Below are positions 39,617 to 63,826 of a stretch of DNA of 64,000 nt, in pieces. Both the position numbers and the translations under genes were made by a program. This DNA comes from Georgenia satyanarayanai. Its GTDB lineage: Bacteria; Actinomycetota; Actinomycetes; Actinomycetales; Actinomycetaceae. Numbering within the stretch: position 1 is the first letter of the stretch; each line of letters starts with the position of its first letter. The DNA is taken from assembly GCF_900116375.1 (NCBI RefSeq), contig NZ_UETB01000002.1, positions 124,001 through 188,000 of the forward strand. The letters are read 5' to 3'. Below the pieces are notes generated by a model that saw nothing but the letters and a program-made list of their open reading frames with translations, was not told where the DNA came from and searched no databases.

Positions 39617-39701
39617 CGCCGAGAGCTGAGTTGTTACTCCCCCAGCGCCCCGCTGCCCGCCACGGGGCGGGGCCCGGCGAGTAACAACTCAGCTCTCGGC
39701 G
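39617..39701. repeat. Locus A: 23-bp inverted pair of the GAGTTGTTAC repeat in a convergent gap
   Basis: A forward copy (39617-39637) and a reverse copy (39681-39701) pair perfectly over 23 bp including flanking bases (39617-39639 with 39679-39701). The loop itself contains a GC hairpin. Both arms carry the same change from the consensus (GAGAGCT instead of GAGCGCT), so pairing is kept. It sits between the convergent GH3 and MFS genes and could end both transcripts. Confidence 0.85.
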
Positions 39702-48327: not shown

Positions 48328-48646
48328 CGCCGAGCGCTGAGTTGTTACGCCCGCCCACCAGCCGAGGCGAGTCATCCCCCATCCGCCGAGCGCTGAGTTG
48401 TTACGACACACCGCCAGCAGAGTCACTCCCCCATTCCGCCGAGCGCTGAGTTGTTACGACCGCCGCGGGACCACGAAGCGCCCCATCCACTCGGTCGCGA
48501 GATGGGCGCCCGAGGGAATTGGGCCCTGAGTAACAACTCAGCGCTCGGCGATAGAGAGGCCGTAACAACTCAGCGCTCGGCGACGGAGAGGCCGTAACAA
48601 CTCAGCGCTCGGCGACGGAGAGGCCGTAACAACTCAGCGCTCGGCG
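48328..48646. repeat. Locus B: seven copies of the repeat as a 3-forward / 4-reverse inverted array
   Basis: The 358-bp convergent gap between the XPB gene and the oxidoreductase holds forward copies at 48328, 48384 and 48437 (periods 56 and 53) and reverse copies at 48530, 48562, 48594 and 48626 (period exactly 32). Each copy is 21 bp. Spacers within an array are near-identical (for example GAYRGAGAGGC in the reverse set). A central imperfect hairpin (GCGCCCCATC ... GATGGGCGC) separates the two halves. No coding sequence is seen in this gap. Confidence 0.92.
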
Positions 48647-55740: not shown

Positions 55741-55965
55741 CGCGAGCGCTGAGCTGTTCCTCCCGCCCCCCTCGCGCCCTCCCCTCACCCGCCGAGCGCT
55801 GAGTTGTTACTCCTCCGCCCCCACGTGCCCGACCCCTCACCCGCCGAGCGCTGACTTGTTACTCCTCCGCCCCCACGTGCCCGCCCCCTCACCCGCCGAG
55901 CGCTGACTTGTTACTCCTCCGCCCCCACGTTCCTCCCCCTCACCCGCCGAGCGCTGAGTTGTTAC
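55741..55965 (+). repeat. Locus C: four forward copies (plus one decayed) of the repeat, about 52-bp period
   Basis: The 371-bp gap between the amidohydrolase and DUF559 gene 1 holds forward copies at 55790, 55842, 55894 and 55945 (periods 52, 52, 51) and a decayed copy at 55741-55760. The second and third copies read GACTTG instead of GAGTTG. The spacers are near-identical, so the array grew by tandem duplication of a 52-bp unit. The rest of the gap (55966-56092) holds the DUF559 promoter and nothing else I can name. Confidence 0.9.
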
Positions 55966-56092
55966 TCCTTGAACCACTCCGCGGGGACGACGTGTCGGGA
56001 GCAGTGCTCCACAGTTCGCGCCTCACGCCCGAAGTCCCCGCGTCCTCACAGACGGCGGAGACCGGTTCGACGGTTGCTGCCACCGTTCACCG

Positions 56093-57025
56093 ATGGACGT
56101 CATCTCTGAACCATTCACCTACGAACACGCCCGACGACACGGCCTGACGGCCAACGACCTCGTCGAGCGCTGCCGTGCAGGGGAGCTCGTGCGCCCACAT
56201 CGCGGCGTCTACCTGCCAGCTCACCTGGTCGACGACCTCGATGCTCGCGTGGTCGCCGTCGGCCTTCTTCTTCCCCGGGGCGCTGCGGTCGCCCGCGAGT
56301 CTGCGGCCTGGATGCTCGGCCTCGACGTCCGCCCGCCCGAGCGGTGGCGGAGCGCCCCCAAGCTCGAGTGCCTCGTGCCCCTCGACGGGATACGGCCTCG
56401 CCACCCCGGCGTCAACGCCTTCATCAGCGCGCTGCCCCCGGACGACATCGTCGTCATCAACGGCATCGCCTGTACCACGGCGACTCGGACAGGCCTGGAC
56501 CTCGCTCGCTGGCGTCCTCGCTTCATCGGGCTCGGCGCGGTCGATGCGCTGGCCCATGCCGGACTGACGACCGTCACTGAGCTCGCCGAGGCGGCGGGCC
56601 GCTTGGCTGGTCACCGCTTCATCCGGCGGGCACGTGAGGTCATCGACCTGTGCGAACCCGCAACGGAGTCAGTCCCTGAGTCGTGGTGCCGCCTGCGCCT
56701 CATCGAGGCCGGCCTCCCCCGACCAGCCGTCCAGGTCAGTCTTCGGGACGCGGACGGCAGGGAGGTCTATCGACTCGACATGGGGATCCTCGAGGCACTC
56801 GTTGGCATCGAGTACGACGGCGCCGAGCACCACCTCCGGACAGTAGCCGACCGCGAGCGCGACGAGGCGCGCAGAAAGGACATACGCAGACGCTGGCGTT
56901 GGCGCGTCCTCCCCGCCACCGCGGCGGACATCCTCGGACGCTCTCCCCAGCTCGAGGGCGCTGTCATGGAGCTGCTCGGCATCTCGATCGACTTCCGCCG
57001 CCAGGACTGGGGTCTGCAGGCGTAA
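56093..57025 (+). CDS. wHTH (AbiEi-like) plus DUF559 Vsr-like endonuclease, repeat-bracketed
   Basis: 310 aa. The N-terminal 45 residues form a winged helix of the type IV antitoxin AbiEi sort (FTYEHARRHGLTANDLVERC ... VRPHRGVYLPA). The middle (50-185) is unassigned. The C-terminal 190-290 is a DUF559 PD-(D/E)xK-type nuclease fold: ESVPESWCR (Glu192/196), Asp229 in YRLDM, and the IEYDGAEHH strand (Glu240, Asp242). Target unknown. It is bracketed by forward repeat copies on the left (locus C) and reverse copies on the right (locus D), and its TAA stop is formed by bases of the first locus D copy. GC is slightly lower than its neighbours, with more relaxed codon use. Confidence 0.8.
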   Translation: MDVISEPFTYEHARRHGLTANDLVERCRAGELVRPHRGVYLPAHLVDDLDARVVAVGLLLPRGAAVARESAAWMLGLDVRPPERWRSAPKLECLVPLDGIRPRHPGVNAFISALPPDDIVVINGIACTTATRTGLDLARWRPRFIGLGAVDALAHAGLTTVTELAEAAGRLAGHRFIRRAREVIDLCEPATESVPESWCRLRLIEAGLPRPAVQVSLRDADGREVYRLDMGILEALVGIEYDGAEHHLRTVADRERDEARRKDIRRRWRWRVLPATAADILGRSPQLEGAVMELLGISIDFRRQDWGLQA

Positions 57026-57108
57026 CAACTCAGCGCTCGGCGGGATGGGGAGGCATAACAACTCAGCGCTCGGCGAGATGGGGAGGCGTAACAACTCAGC
57101 GCTCGGCG
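57022..57108 (-). repeat. Locus D: three reverse copies of the repeat at exact 33-bp period
   Basis: Copies start at 57022, 57055 (ATAAC variant) and 57088. Each is followed by a near-identical 12-bp spacer (GGATGGGGAGGC). The first copy contains the stop codon of DUF559 gene 1. Orientation is opposite to locus C, so the gene lies inside a large inverted repeat of arrays. Confidence 0.92.
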
Positions 57109-57882: not shown

Positions 57883-59315
57883 CCCTGCACGAGCGCCTGA
57901 GCGCGGTCCCGATCCGCGGCCGGCTCGTGCTCATCGTCGTCGTCGTGCTCGGGCTGGGACTCACCGTCGCGGGCGCGACCACCGGCACGCTGCTGCGCGC
58001 CTACCTCCTCGAGCAGACAGATGAGCAGATCGCGACGGCGGCACGGAACGTCAACATCGACACCCTCGAGCAGCTTGCCGCGAACCCGGACGCCGGATCC
58101 GTCATGCCGTCCGACTACTTCCTCAGCCTGGGCTTCCCCGGCGCCACGCCGGTCACCATCGTCGCCGAGTGGACCCTGCCCCGTTTCGGCAGGCCCGAGC
58201 TCCCCGACACGGTGTCGACCCTCGGGGAGGCCTACACCGTGCGCAGCGACGAGCCCGGCCAGCGGTGGCGCGCCGTCACCTACGGCGTCCAGGACGCCCC
58301 TGCCGGCACGACCCTCACCGTCGCCCTCCCGCTCGAGGGTGCCGACGAGACCGCCTACCAGGTGGCGCGGACGATCGTCGTCTCGGGCGTGCTCATCATC
58401 CTGCTCGGGGCCGCGCTCAGCTGGTTCGCCGTCGAGCGGGCCCTGCGCCCGCTGCGGCAGATCGAGCAGACCGCCGGCGCCATCGCGGCCGGGGACCTCT
58501 CCCAGCGGGTGCCCGCGACCGACCCGCACACGGAGGTCGGGCGCCTGTCGCACTCGCTCAACACGATGCTCGCGCAGATCGAGCAGGCCTTCGCCGCCCA
58601 GGCCGCCTCCGAGAGCCGGATGCGGCGCTTCGTCTCCGACGCCAGCCACGAGCTGCGCACCCCGCTCGCCACCGTCCGCGGCTACGGCGAGCTCTACCGG
58701 ATGGGTGCCATCCCCGAGGCCGAGCTGCCCGCCGCGATGGCCCGCATCGAGGGTGAGGCTCGCCGCATGGGCGGGCTCGTCACCGACCTCCTCCAGCTCG
58801 CCCGCCTCGACGAGGGCCGCCGCCTCGCCCGCGAGCCCGTCGACCTCGCCGTCCTCGCCCACGACGCCGTCGCCGACCTGCGCGCCCTCGATCCCGGGCG
58901 CACCGCGACGCTCGTCCCGCTGGCGGACGGCATCCCCAGCCCGGACGCGATGGTCGTCCTCGGCGACGAGAACGCCCTGCGCCAGGTGCTGTCCAACCTC
59001 ACCGGCAACGTCGTGCGGCACACCCCGGCCGGCACGTCCGTGGAGGTGGCGGCCGGGCGCCAGGGCGGCGACGTCGTCGTCGAGGTCCGCGACCACGGTC
59101 CGGGCATCTCGCCCGAGCACGCCGAGCGCGTCTTCGAGCGCTTCTACCGCCTCGACGACTCCCGGGCCCGCTCCTCCGGCGGCTCGGGCCTCGGCCTGGC
59201 GATCGTCTCGGCCCTCGTCGCCGCGCACGGCGGCACCGCGCGGGTGCTGCCCACCCCCGGGGGCGGCACGACCGTCCGCATCACCCTCCCGGCAGCCGAC
59301 ACGATCCCGTCCTGA
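57879..59315 (+). CDS. Sensor histidine kinase, partner of the response regulator
   Basis: 478 aa. Helix about 15-38, an extracytoplasmic sensor region (about 40-160), helix about 163-184, HAMP (about 185-240), dimerisation domain with His257 ([11 protein letters not shown]) and HATPase_c with [26 protein letters not shown] and GSGLGLAIV. Coupled to the regulator by an ATGA overlap. Ligand unknown. Confidence 0.92.
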
Positions 59316-59330
59316 CGGGTCGCCTGACAG

Positions 59331-59428
59331 ATCCCGCCACAAACGGTCCTGGCATCAGCGCGACACGCCGACGACACGCCGTGGTGAGCTCGTTCCTGCG
59401 GGCGTTCGGTCCGCCTTTGTGGCGGGAT
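59331..59428. repeat. 98-bp element with 13-bp terminal inverted repeats, left of DUF559 gene 2
   Basis: ATCCCGCCACAAA (59331-59343) and TTTGTGGCGGGAT (59416-59428) are perfect inverted repeats around 72 bp. The element at 60427-60523 has related ends and almost the same length but a different interior. The gap 59316-59557 holds no gene. Confidence 0.85.
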
Positions 59429-59557
59429 TCGGAAGTCGGCGCCGGGCCCTGGACCGGACCGTGGGTCGCCCGTCCACAGTGAGCACCCATGTCGACGCCA
59501 CCCACAGTCCGCCGCTCGCCCCCGACCTGTCGTCGGCGCCAGACCGACCATTCCCCC

Positions 59558-60411
59558 ATGGACGTCGTCACCAGGCTTCTGGAACTGGGCGGCGTCGCGC
59601 GCCGCTCAGAGCTGGTCGGCTCGGCAGCAGACCGACGCGCGCTCGCGGAGGCTGTGGCCCTCGAGACGCTGCGTGACCTCGGAGGTGGCTGGGTCGCCGC
59701 CGTGGACGCCGATGCGGCCGTCGTTGCCGCCCGCCGGTTCAACGGCACCATCACCTGTGTCAGCGCGGCACCCTTCTACGCGCTGCAGCAGCTCAGAGTT
59801 CCCGAGCGCGTCCACATGGCCGTTCCGCGCGCCAGAGGCGCGCGTCCAGTCCCTCTCCGCCGCGCGGTCGTCGTGCACCGCGAGACGAGCTGGACCCGCC
59901 CGTCCGGCCGTGTTCCGCCCGTAGCACCACTGGTCGAGGTCCTCGCCCGGGTCCTACGCTGCTGCCCGGAGGACGAGGCCGTCACCGTGGTCGACTCCGC
60001 GCTGAACCGCGGACTGATCACCGTGGAGGAGATCGACCGCAGTCTGGAGGGCCCGGCAGTCTCCGGGCACGGACGGCGCTCCACCGCTGTGACGGTCGCA
60101 GCCGCTCGGCGATCGAGACGCTGGCGCGGCTCGCCCTGCGTGCCGCGGGGTACAGCGTCGAGGCAGGTGTCCCGATCCGGGGCGTCGGCGAGGTCGACCT
60201 GGTCGTGGCCGGGAAGGTGGTCGTCGAGTGTGACGGGTTCAGCTACCACTCGGGCCGGCACGAGTACCGGGAGGATCGCCGCCGCGACCGAGCTCTCGCC
60301 GCACTGGGCTACGTCACCCTGCGGTTCACCTGGGAGGACATCATGAATGATCCGGGGGTGGTCGTCGCTGCCGTCAGGGCCGTCCTCGAGCGGAGGCAAT
60401 CGGCACGCTAG
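59558..60411 (+). pseudogene. wHTH plus DUF559 Vsr-like endonuclease, broken by a frameshift
   Basis: The start MDVVTRLLELGGVARRSELV encodes an AbiEi-like winged helix. The frame stays open and homologous to about 60085. The nuclease part continues one frame back: from DGRSRSAIETLARLALRAAG through IRGVGEVDLVVAGKVVVECD and GFSYHSGRHEY to the stop at 60411, with the Asp/Glu-x-Asp core of DUF559. One lost base between about 60060 and 60095 explains the break. I see no slippery heptamer. Start is probably leaderless (GACCAT, six bases, ATG). It is bracketed by the 98-bp elements. It could also be an assembly error. Confidence 0.78.
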
Positions 60412-60426
60412 AGACGGGCCGCGCGG

Positions 60427-60523
60427 ATCGCGCCACAACCACGGCCGGACGGGCCGTGGATCGCCGGCATCACGCGAAGCCTCGCGCTCGCTCACTGCCT
60501 GATGAGTCCCTTTGTGGCGCGAT
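60427..60523. repeat. 97-bp element with 12-bp terminal inverted repeats, right of DUF559 gene 2
   Basis: ATCGCGCCACAA (60427-60438) and TTGTGGCGCGAT (60512-60523) pair perfectly. Compared with 59331-59428 the same position in both arms changed from C/G to G/C, so pairing is kept. An internal hairpin CCACGGCC / GGCCGTGG lies at the left. It fills the gap between the DUF559 pseudogene and modC stop codons (convergent). Confidence 0.85.
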
Positions 60524-60538
60524 TCGCGAACCGAGTGG

Positions 60539-61609
60539 CTAGGCGTCGTAGATCTCCACCTCGGCCGCCTTGACGACGAGGACGACGTCGTCGCCCACCC
60601 CGACCCGCAGGACGCTGAGGGACGCCGGGGTCACGTCCGCAGCCAGGCGGGTGCCCGACGCCGTCTCCCCGCGCACCCGGACGAGGGCTCCCTGCTGCTC
60701 CAGACCCGTCACCCGCACCGGCAGCACGTTGCGTGGGCTGCCGCCCGGGGCGGTCCGGTGGACAGCCACCGCGCGCGGGGAGAACGCGGCGGCGGCGCGC
60801 CCGGTCCTCGCCGCCGGCTGCGCGCTCGCGAGCCCGTGGACGACCTCGTCGCCGGCGCGCACAGCGTCCGCCGCCACCCGCTCACCGAGGAGCAGGTTGA
60901 CCCCCGCGAGCCGCGCGCCGAAGCCGGACCGCGGCCGGCCGAGCACCTCCGCCGTCGTCCCCTGCTCGACGACACGGCCGGCCTCGAGCACGACGACGTC
61001 GTCGGCGAGGGCGAGGACGTCGAGCAGGTCGTGGGTGACGACGACGGCGGCCCGTCCGGAGCCGCGCAGCGCCGCGCGCAGGACCTGGCGCAGCTGGGCC
61101 GCGGCGTCGACGTCGAGGGCGGAGAGGGGCTCGTCGAGCAGCAGGAGGTGCGGGTCCGGTGCGAGCGCCCGGGCGAGGGCCACACGCTGCGCCTGCCCGC
61201 CGGAGAGCCGGTGCACCCGCCGCTCGGCGAGCGCCTCCGCGCCCACCTCCGCCAGCCGGGTCCGTGCCACCTCGTCGGCCGCGCGACGTGCCACTCCGCG
61301 GGCCCGGGGCCCGAAGGCGACGTTGGCGAGGACGTCGAGGTGGGGCAGGAGGAGCGGCTCCTGCGCGAGGAGCGAGATCCGGCGGCCGTGCGGCGGCACC
61401 CAGGCCCCCTCCCCCGCCACCCGCCGCCCGGCGACGTGGACCTCGCCGTCGGCCGGCCGCACCGTGCCCGCCGCGAGCCCGAGCACCGTGGACTTGCCCG
61501 CGCCGTTGGGCCCGAGCAGCGCGAGGACCCGGCCCGCCGGGACGGTGAGCTCGATCTCCACGTCCCGCTCCGGGACGGCCGCGCGGACGCTGAGCGCCGG
61601 CGCGCTCAC
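60539..61609 (-). CDS. modC: Molybdate ABC transporter ATPase ModC
   Basis: 356 aa. Walker [10 protein letters not shown], signature [15 protein letters not shown], Walker [13 protein letters not shown], His switch [10 protein letters not shown], and a C-terminal TOBE/Mop domain ([19 protein letters not shown]). GTG start overlaps modB by 4 nt. Powers molybdate or tungstate import. Last gene of the mod operon. Confidence 0.93.
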
Positions 61610-63667: not shown

Positions 63668-63826
63668 GTAACAACTCAGCGCTCGGCGGAAGGGGGCGGG
63701 GGTAACAACTCAGCGCTCGGCGGAAGGGGGCGGGGGTAACAACTCAGCGCTCGGCGAAAGGGGGGGGGGGGGGGGGGGGGGGGGCGGAGGGGCTGCCGCC
63801 CTCTGCGCCGAGCGCTGAGTTTTTAC
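63668..63826. repeat. Locus E: three reverse and one forward repeat copy around a G-tract
   Basis: Reverse copies at 63668, 63702 and 63736 (period exactly 34, near-identical spacers GAAGGGGGCGGGG) and one forward copy at 63806-63826 with a G to T change (GAGTTTTTAC). The G-tract at 63760-63784 lies between the two orientations. The locus separates the mod regulator promoter from the 3' end of the next gene. Confidence 0.9.
63760..63784. repeat. 25-nt uninterrupted G tract
   Basis: 25 consecutive G on the plus strand, interrupted at 63785 by C. It lies inside repeat locus E, between reverse and forward copies. Length in the read data should be treated as uncertain, as such tracts slip in vivo and in sequencing. 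Confidence 0.9.

Follow-up and report, generated by a model that had tools for sequence, protein, structure and literature searches.

A dispersed repeat word and the predicted winged-helix nuclease genes that it frames suggest an unrecognised counterpart of REP/RAYT systems in actinobacteria

In a number of actinobacteria, genes encoding an AbiEi-like winged-helix protein with a predicted nuclease domain are situated between inward-facing arrays of a repeat of about 20 bp, hereafter called the word. Different subtypes of the gene go with different words, a specificity that, judging from comparisons of the words and proteins, appears well supported. The arrangement suggests an unrecognised counterpart of the REP/RAYT systems in these bacteria. 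It is described here from the window, meaning the whole analysed stretch of 64 kb of Georgenia satyanarayanai DNA, and from the genomes of its relatives.

The word GAGCGCTGASTTGTTA occurs in the window in 21 copies (≤2 mismatches), while all 100 dinucleotide shuffles of the window gave 0. The copies are spread over loci A, B, C, D and E, which are given below together with the two genes discussed.

39621..39697, no strand assigned: locus A, one convergent pair of the variant GAGAGCTGAGTTGTTA, between convergent genes
48332..48642, no strand assigned: locus B, three forward then four reverse copies (word search)
55744..55964, plus strand: locus C, five forward copies (16-mer starts 55744, 55794, 55846, 55898 and 55949; 50-52 bp apart)
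56093..57025, plus strand: gene 1, encoding a 310-aa AbiEi-type winged-helix protein with a predicted C-terminal REase_MTES_1575/Vsr-like nuclease domain (ORF, Pfam, PADLOC, structure model)
57023..57104, minus strand: locus D, three reverse copies (starts 57023, 57056 and 57089; 33-bp period)
59558..60411, plus strand: gene 2, a second wHTH-DUF559 gene, frameshifted (DUF559 match in the downstream frame, E 7.9e-10; start read by eye)
63669..63825, no strand assigned: locus E, three reverse copies and one forward copy (word search)

Gene 1 lies between the five forward copies of locus C, each preceded by a C-rich leader and the one at 55744 having two mismatches to the word, and the three reverse copies of locus D. 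The first-pass annotation had described a large inverted-repeat frame around a single gene, and the word search and the ORF list agree with it, loci C and D flanking a lone ORF. It had also remarked that the gene takes its stop codon from a repeat; indeed, the first locus D copy begins with the TAA at 57023-57025. The overlap is nothing special to gene 1 because two further predicted genes of the source genome (L045 and L081; distance -3) also terminate within a copy, and we regard it as incidental. Gene 2 has a different flanking word of its own, TTTGTGGCGSGAT, at 59330 (minus), 59416 (plus) and 60511 (plus) in the region 59310-60545. An attC-like look of TAACAACTC was dropped from consideration because the array periods of 33-52 bp are too short for cassettes.

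The source genome (G000; 3.9 Mb) contains 142 copies of GAGCGCTGASTTGTTA, 72 forward and 70 reverse (≤1 mismatch), and the reversed control gave 0. Within 31 stretches of this genome, 144 copies were intergenic and 9 were in predicted coding sequence (≤3 mismatches). With gaps classified by our own codon-score gene predictions, 14 of the 31 convergent gaps of at least 30 bp contained copies, as did 20 of the 104 tandem and 3 of the 45 divergent ones, and 18 of the 20 tandem-gap clusters were closer to the 3′ end of the upstream gene. An M23 peptidase-like gene of the same genome (named by reading; L089:4959-5803) is also placed between forward and reverse copies.

The gene 1 product matched the Pfam family AbiEi_4 above the cutoff (E 7.2e-7), and both AbiEi_1 and REase_MTES_1575 below it. 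Pfam and PADLOC taken together relate its N-terminal part to AbiEi antitoxins and its C terminus, weakly, to REase_MTES_1575/DUF559. The AlphaFold model (pLDDT 90.2, pTM 0.88; residues 245-248 with pLDDT <50) matched AbiEi (PDB 6y8q) in Foldseek with E 7.7e-7, and its nuclease domain matched 3r3p, the catalytic domain of I-Bth0305I, with a probability of 0.99, a weak E of 0.04 and a TM of 0.62 to the target. A profile search against PDB sequences gave nothing at E 1, and an NCBIfam search of the protein gave no match. These predictions depict an AbiEi-like DNA-binding part joined to a nuclease domain resembling that of the homing endonuclease I-Bth0305I. All 23 aligned proteins share E196, D229, E240, D242, H247, D257 and R261, and these acidic, histidine and arginine residues may be catalytic. 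Of the initial reading of the protein as a winged helix plus a nuclease, the winged helix is found to be of the AbiEi type and the nuclease domain is matched weakly, while the label 'DUF559' is a loose one, with no DUF559 hit in the Pfam scan of gene 1 and PF04480 matching 3 of the 23 aligned homologous proteins.

We examined the framing of homologous genes by a blind flank test, an alignment of the 650 bp preceding each gene with the reverse complement of the 650 bp that follow. The homologue set consisted of 35 loci, 7 in the genus and 28 in other genera; gene 1 of the congener G002, which is split over two contigs, was left out of both this test and the word reading, L068 and (for too little flank) L205 were left out of this test, and six order-level and seven phylum-level matches listed without a locus were left out of the homologue tests. 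With a threshold of 40, chosen after the scores were known, the inverted flanks scored at least 40 at 29 of the 35 loci and below 40 at six, and the direct-orientation control reached it at 0 of 35. Scores of at least 40 were obtained for one or more loci in all 13 of the other genera. In contrast, only 5 of 395 other genes scored this high. The link between gene and repeat, drawn in the first-pass annotation from one locus, thus holds in 13 further genera by this test when it is generalised to each subtype's own word.

The control genes that did score were themselves informative. Six of 235 control genes in five congeners reached 40; three of them were wHTH-DUF559 genes, namely gene 1, the second gene of G002 and a previously unnoticed gene of G004 (C13:97782-98618), and three were not, namely SerC-like and DDAH-like genes in G003 (named by reading) and a transposase-like gene in G002. 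In direct orientation, 7 of these 235 genes scored at least 40. Among 163 control genes in other genera, two reached 40, both being the prephenate-dehydrogenase-like gene, in two species of the genus g22. All five control matches have dispersed copies of the word of the genome concerned on either side and are the same phenomenon rather than noise; from the two g22 matches it follows that the word framing the nuclease gene is dispersed in both g22 genomes. The g22 gene (named by reading; L186:4544-5659 and L187:14067-15143) stands between arrays of each genome's own word. The G002 transposase-like gene (also named by reading; L128:10376-11623, C27) stands between two outward-facing copies of a 25-bp stretch holding the D1 word (see below).

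Among 12 distant paralogues in the genus (33-36% identity), 5 reached 40 in inverted and 4 in direct orientation. The distant wHTH-DUF559 paralogues L034, L072, L062, L066 and L067 have inverted flanking arms, about 70-95 bp long in three of them. Outside the order, a score of 40 was reached by 8 of 25 loci with inverted flanks and by 12 of 25 with direct ones, so that framing by inward arrays no longer holds as a rule and the pattern changes form. Among these loci (L192-L219), homologues of family f22 reach at least 5 matches in some genomes (five candidates scored), and the f22 flanking words often start with CGCCGAG and have mixed orientation.

An automatic 8-mer word finder was swamped by coding GC skew and was replaced by flank alignment and then by words read by eye, which could be obtained at 33 of the 35 loci (L134 and L153 having no readable word). 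At these 33 loci, 150 copies faced inward and 2 outward, counts that are biased by the reading by eye, and both flanks were hit at 28. Word similarity rose with protein identity (Mantel Spearman 0.473); none of 2000 permutations, which leave host relatedness in, was as high (maximum 0.237). Words of the same genome (G000, G042, G306 and G051) have 11-13 of 20 bases in common, and counterpart words of different genomes have 15 of 20 (G042/G306, twice) or 19 of 20 (G002/G004).

Four words were counted across genomes. The D1 word, GAGCGCTGASTTGTT, was present in 112 copies in G000, 91 in G002 and 7 in G004, and in none of the other 56 of 59 genomes. The D2 word, GASAGCCGGATTCC, was present in 125 copies in G004, 83 in G002, 9 in G001 and 1 each in G003 and G336, with 0 in the other 36 of 41 genomes. 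Two words from other families, taken from gene flanks before counting, behaved similarly: GTGATCATGCACG had 85 copies in G039 and 99 in G057 (0-4 in the other 39 of 41), and CGAGGTGGTTCTGC had 114 in G284 (0-1 in the other 40 of 41). These 41 genomes were a selected set, 31 with a homologue and 10 without, and the reversed-pattern controls for the four words gave 0, or at most 1 for CGAGGTGGTTCTGC. In these surveys of 41-59 genomes, 83-125 copies were observed only where the gene framed by that word was present. A genome rich in the motif and lacking the gene had been named at the outset as evidence against the link; there was none among the four words counted, yet the 7 D1 copies of G004 and the 9 D2 copies of G001 occur without the cognate gene.

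The first-pass annotation had looked for the same 21-bp motif near homologues; this proved correct for the G000 and G002 orthologues only, other gene subtypes carrying other words. A single universal motif is ruled out, as the word is absent from 56 of 59 relatives and congeners carry others. The exact motif was not found in G001, G003 or G005 (the last 57% complete), in which other words occur, and k-mer counts gave the D2 word in G004 and AGCCGACTTCCG in G003. G002 holds D1 and D2 with both genes, and G000 holds two genes with two words. Ruania rhizosphaerae, the only organism outside Georgenia/Oceanitalea among the matches listed in a search for word pairs, has an inverted pair GAGCGCTGAGTTGTTC...GAACAACTCAGCGCTC (L095:1102-1154).

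The unit is present at the gene 1 site in some congeners and absent in others. Judging by reading, the genes next to gene 1 encode an amidohydrolase-like protein and a response regulator. These two genes directly adjoin each other in G001, G003 and G004, where 30, 191 and 30 bp, respectively, separate the matched flanks, and this orthologous site holds neither gene 1 nor words. The common junction of G001 and G004 may be a secondary deletion, and gain of the unit at the site therefore rests on G003. No target-site duplication or clean insertion boundary was found at the orthologous gaps, which are too diverged for exact boundaries. At this site, G002 carries an orthologue of gene 1 (96% over residues 1-230 and 93% over the remainder). 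Copies of the word frame it on either side, and it is split across two contig ends near residue 230 (L055 C10 and L065 C27), so that there is an insertion or an assembly break within the gene.

By their neighbouring genes, the eight closest genes in the genus occupy five different sites, and a word array adjoins all eight. Arrays stand on both sides of gene 1 and the second gene in both G000 and G002, and of the genes of G004 and G003; the gene of G001 has the downstream array adjacent and the upstream array one gene away, and for the gene of G005 (57% complete) an array was found on one side only. The gap of locus B is occupied by D1 arrays in G000, by copies of GAGGAATCCGGCTGTCGGCGG in both G004 and G002, and by a short inverted pair in G001. 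Five loci from three families (L171, L172, L175, L180 and L183) have the gene in the interval from valS to clpX; at four of them it adjoins both of these genes, in G057 there is one extra gene on either side, and the words differ. Most simply, the word would have changed at these loci while the gene stayed put, and because the five keep this position, the wHTH-nuclease gene may be mostly vertical.

The inverted pairs have preferred spacings. In G000, the forward-to-reverse gaps were 3-6 bp (9 pairs) or 12-15 bp (9 pairs), with none of 7-11 bp, and the spacers differ except at three loci that each have a duplicated pair. G039 had gaps of 21-25 bp (10), 33-34 bp (9), 45, 54 and 55 bp, and its spacers of equal length average 35-48% identity in their middles; G057 had gaps of 22-24 bp (8) and 33 bp (1). 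Among the periods scanned, computed from partial position lists, 10.5 bp was the best in G039 only; those elsewhere were 9.5 (G000), 11 (G057), 6 and 13 (G002) and 15 bp (G004), the pairs of G002 and G004 clustering at one spacing and being uninformative on period. According to PMC7319586, the inverted repeats bound by AbiEi and Rv2827c are 23 bp long and spaced by 3 and 13 bp, which is the same step as that between the G000 gaps. Equal spacing combined with unrelated spacer sequence argues against simple descent and favours a dimer on duplex DNA, to which the preferred spacings, differing by one helical turn in the clearest genomes, also point.

Our preferred reading, which we hold to be probable though well short of certain, is that the gene product is a sequence-specific nuclease that recognises its word of about 20 bp as a dimer, and that words spread by cutting and repair. 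An inverted word pair would be bound by two AbiEi-type winged helices on the same face of the duplex. The gene together with the inward arrays of its word would make up the full unit, and the short inverted pairs dispersed intergenically, mostly behind the 3′ ends of genes, would be small gene-less derivatives of it, comparable to MITEs beside a transposon or to REPINs beside a RAYT. Words would be nicked or cut by the nuclease, repair would copy and homogenise them genome-wide, and as the DNA-binding part drifts, the genome's word would drift along. Observed are the coupling of gene and word, the dispersal of words together with their cognate gene, the favoured pair spacings, the invariant nuclease-type residues and the presence or absence of the unit at an orthologous site; binding of the word by this protein, cutting, and spread through cutting and repair are inferred. 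Against this mechanism, a cutting enzyme would need restraint with about 140 genomic sites, and native genes and a transposase-like gene also sit between word copies. The shared valS-clpX position, the missing target-site duplication, the six loci below 40, the one-sided or displaced arrays of G005 and G001, the different pattern outside the order, the best periods other than 10.5 bp and the weak nuclease-fold match count against it as well.

The main rival, which we think unlikely, is a role in regulation or termination: the protein would be an AbiEi-like regulator with the framing arrays as its operators, the dispersed pairs would be binding sites at gene ends, acting as transcription blocks or terminators, the nuclease domain would have some other function, and the words would be spread by ordinary duplication and kept by selection. 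The positions of the G000 copies (14/31 convergent, 20/104 tandem and 3/45 divergent gaps, with 18/20 tandem clusters near the upstream 3′ end) suit such a role, as does the autoregulation of AbiEi-family proteins through inverted repeats, described in PMC7319586; the pair spacing, for its part, speaks for binding only. However, inward-facing arrays are also present downstream of the gene, the nuclease-type residues are invariant in the 23 aligned proteins, and the dominant word differs among congeners, an outcome that selection on terminators alone would hardly yield.

A role in defence or addiction, with the nuclease attacking DNA by its word content (foreign DNA, or daughters losing the gene) and the chromosomal words serving as decoys or self-marks, seems to us improbable. 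The nuclease domain and the homology of AbiEi to a phage-defence antitoxin (PADLOC AbiEi models) accord with it, but the frame contains no second gene, and congeners without the unit still have the downstream gene. We give very little credence to the view that unrelated machinery spreads the words and that wHTH-nuclease genes merely land in repeat-rich gaps. It would account for the other genes between copies, that is, the 5 of 395 controls and the M23 peptidase-like gene, whereas different gene subtypes have different words both across genomes and within one genome, the homologue loci reach 29 of 35, and Y1, the transposase type surveyed, is missing from the six congeners.

Comparison with known systems sets our preferred reading, a dimeric nuclease with words spread by cutting and repair, in context. 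Like AbiEi, the antitoxin of the type IV toxin-antitoxin system AbiE, the protein has a winged-helix N terminus and an AbiEi C-terminal domain; unlike in AbiE, gene 1 has an added nuclease domain, the putative repeats are dispersed genome-wide, and no partner gene lies inside the frame. In AbiE, the cognate toxin AbiEii (DUF1814) is encoded in the same operon; the gene that follows gene 1 reads as a response regulator and also occurs in congeners lacking the unit. The predicted nuclease domain is like that of I-Bth0305I, whose class we take to be EDxHD/Vsr-like homing endonucleases, though the match to 3r3p has E 0.04 and residues 245-248 are of low confidence. Homing enzymes interrupt their target, whereas gene 1 is flanked by arrays of its supposed target that remain intact, and about 100 copies occur elsewhere. 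MITEs are gene-less relatives of a full transposon, and the short dispersed inverted pairs similarly resemble gene-less versions of the framed unit; unlike with MITEs, the unit has no transposase of known type, and no target-site duplication was found at the diverged orthologous gaps. DNA uptake sequences, words that promote the uptake of DNA, were considered as well, on account of the species dialects and the inverted pairs at gene ends.

The closest analogue in behaviour is REPIN-RAYT. According to PMC3116915 and PMC8049555, REP/REPIN repeats are dispersed intergenically, often as inverted pairs, a genome can carry several flavours, each next to its own gene, and RAYTs are single-copy and largely vertical. 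The present system is like it in having a dedicated nuclease gene beside an intergenically dispersed repeat, and several flavours per genome with their own genes. The protein is unrelated to RAYT, having an AbiEi winged helix and a Vsr/EDxHD-like nuclease and no Y1 domain, and the DNA form recognised seems different, since the pair spacings suggest a dimer on duplex DNA and not a single-strand hairpin. At E 0.001, none of the six congeners, one of which is 57% complete, gave a match to the Y1 transposase domain (PF01797), and 5 of 14 control genomes did; a RAYT was rejected on the basis of these six. The first-pass annotation's analogy to RAYT and REP, with a Vsr-like nuclease in place of Y1, survives these tests: a repeat-flanked nuclease gene, several flavours and no Y1 in these congeners.

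In the open-access literature (preprints excluded), we found no paper tying DUF559/AbiEi nucleases to dispersed repeats. To our knowledge, the only dedicated enzymes for REP-type dispersed repeats are the RAYT transposases. No part of the system shares homology with REPIN-RAYT, the one system of like behaviour that we know of, and we would give even chances that it is a repeat-nuclease class independent of RAYT, in which an AbiEi winged helix fused to a homing-type nuclease would maintain and rewrite duplex words of about 20 bp by cut-and-copy, the lineage dialects tracking the DNA-binding part. If so, a second, unrelated enzyme family would mean that nuclease-repeat partnerships evolved more than once, the dispersed intergenic repeats of several actinobacterial lineages would be explained, and wHTH-DUF559 genes, now named as unknown or antitoxin-like, would acquire a testable role. 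The pairs of protein and word offer a natural series for reading how a winged helix encodes DNA specificity, in a system whose nearest counterpart in behaviour is REPIN-RAYT.
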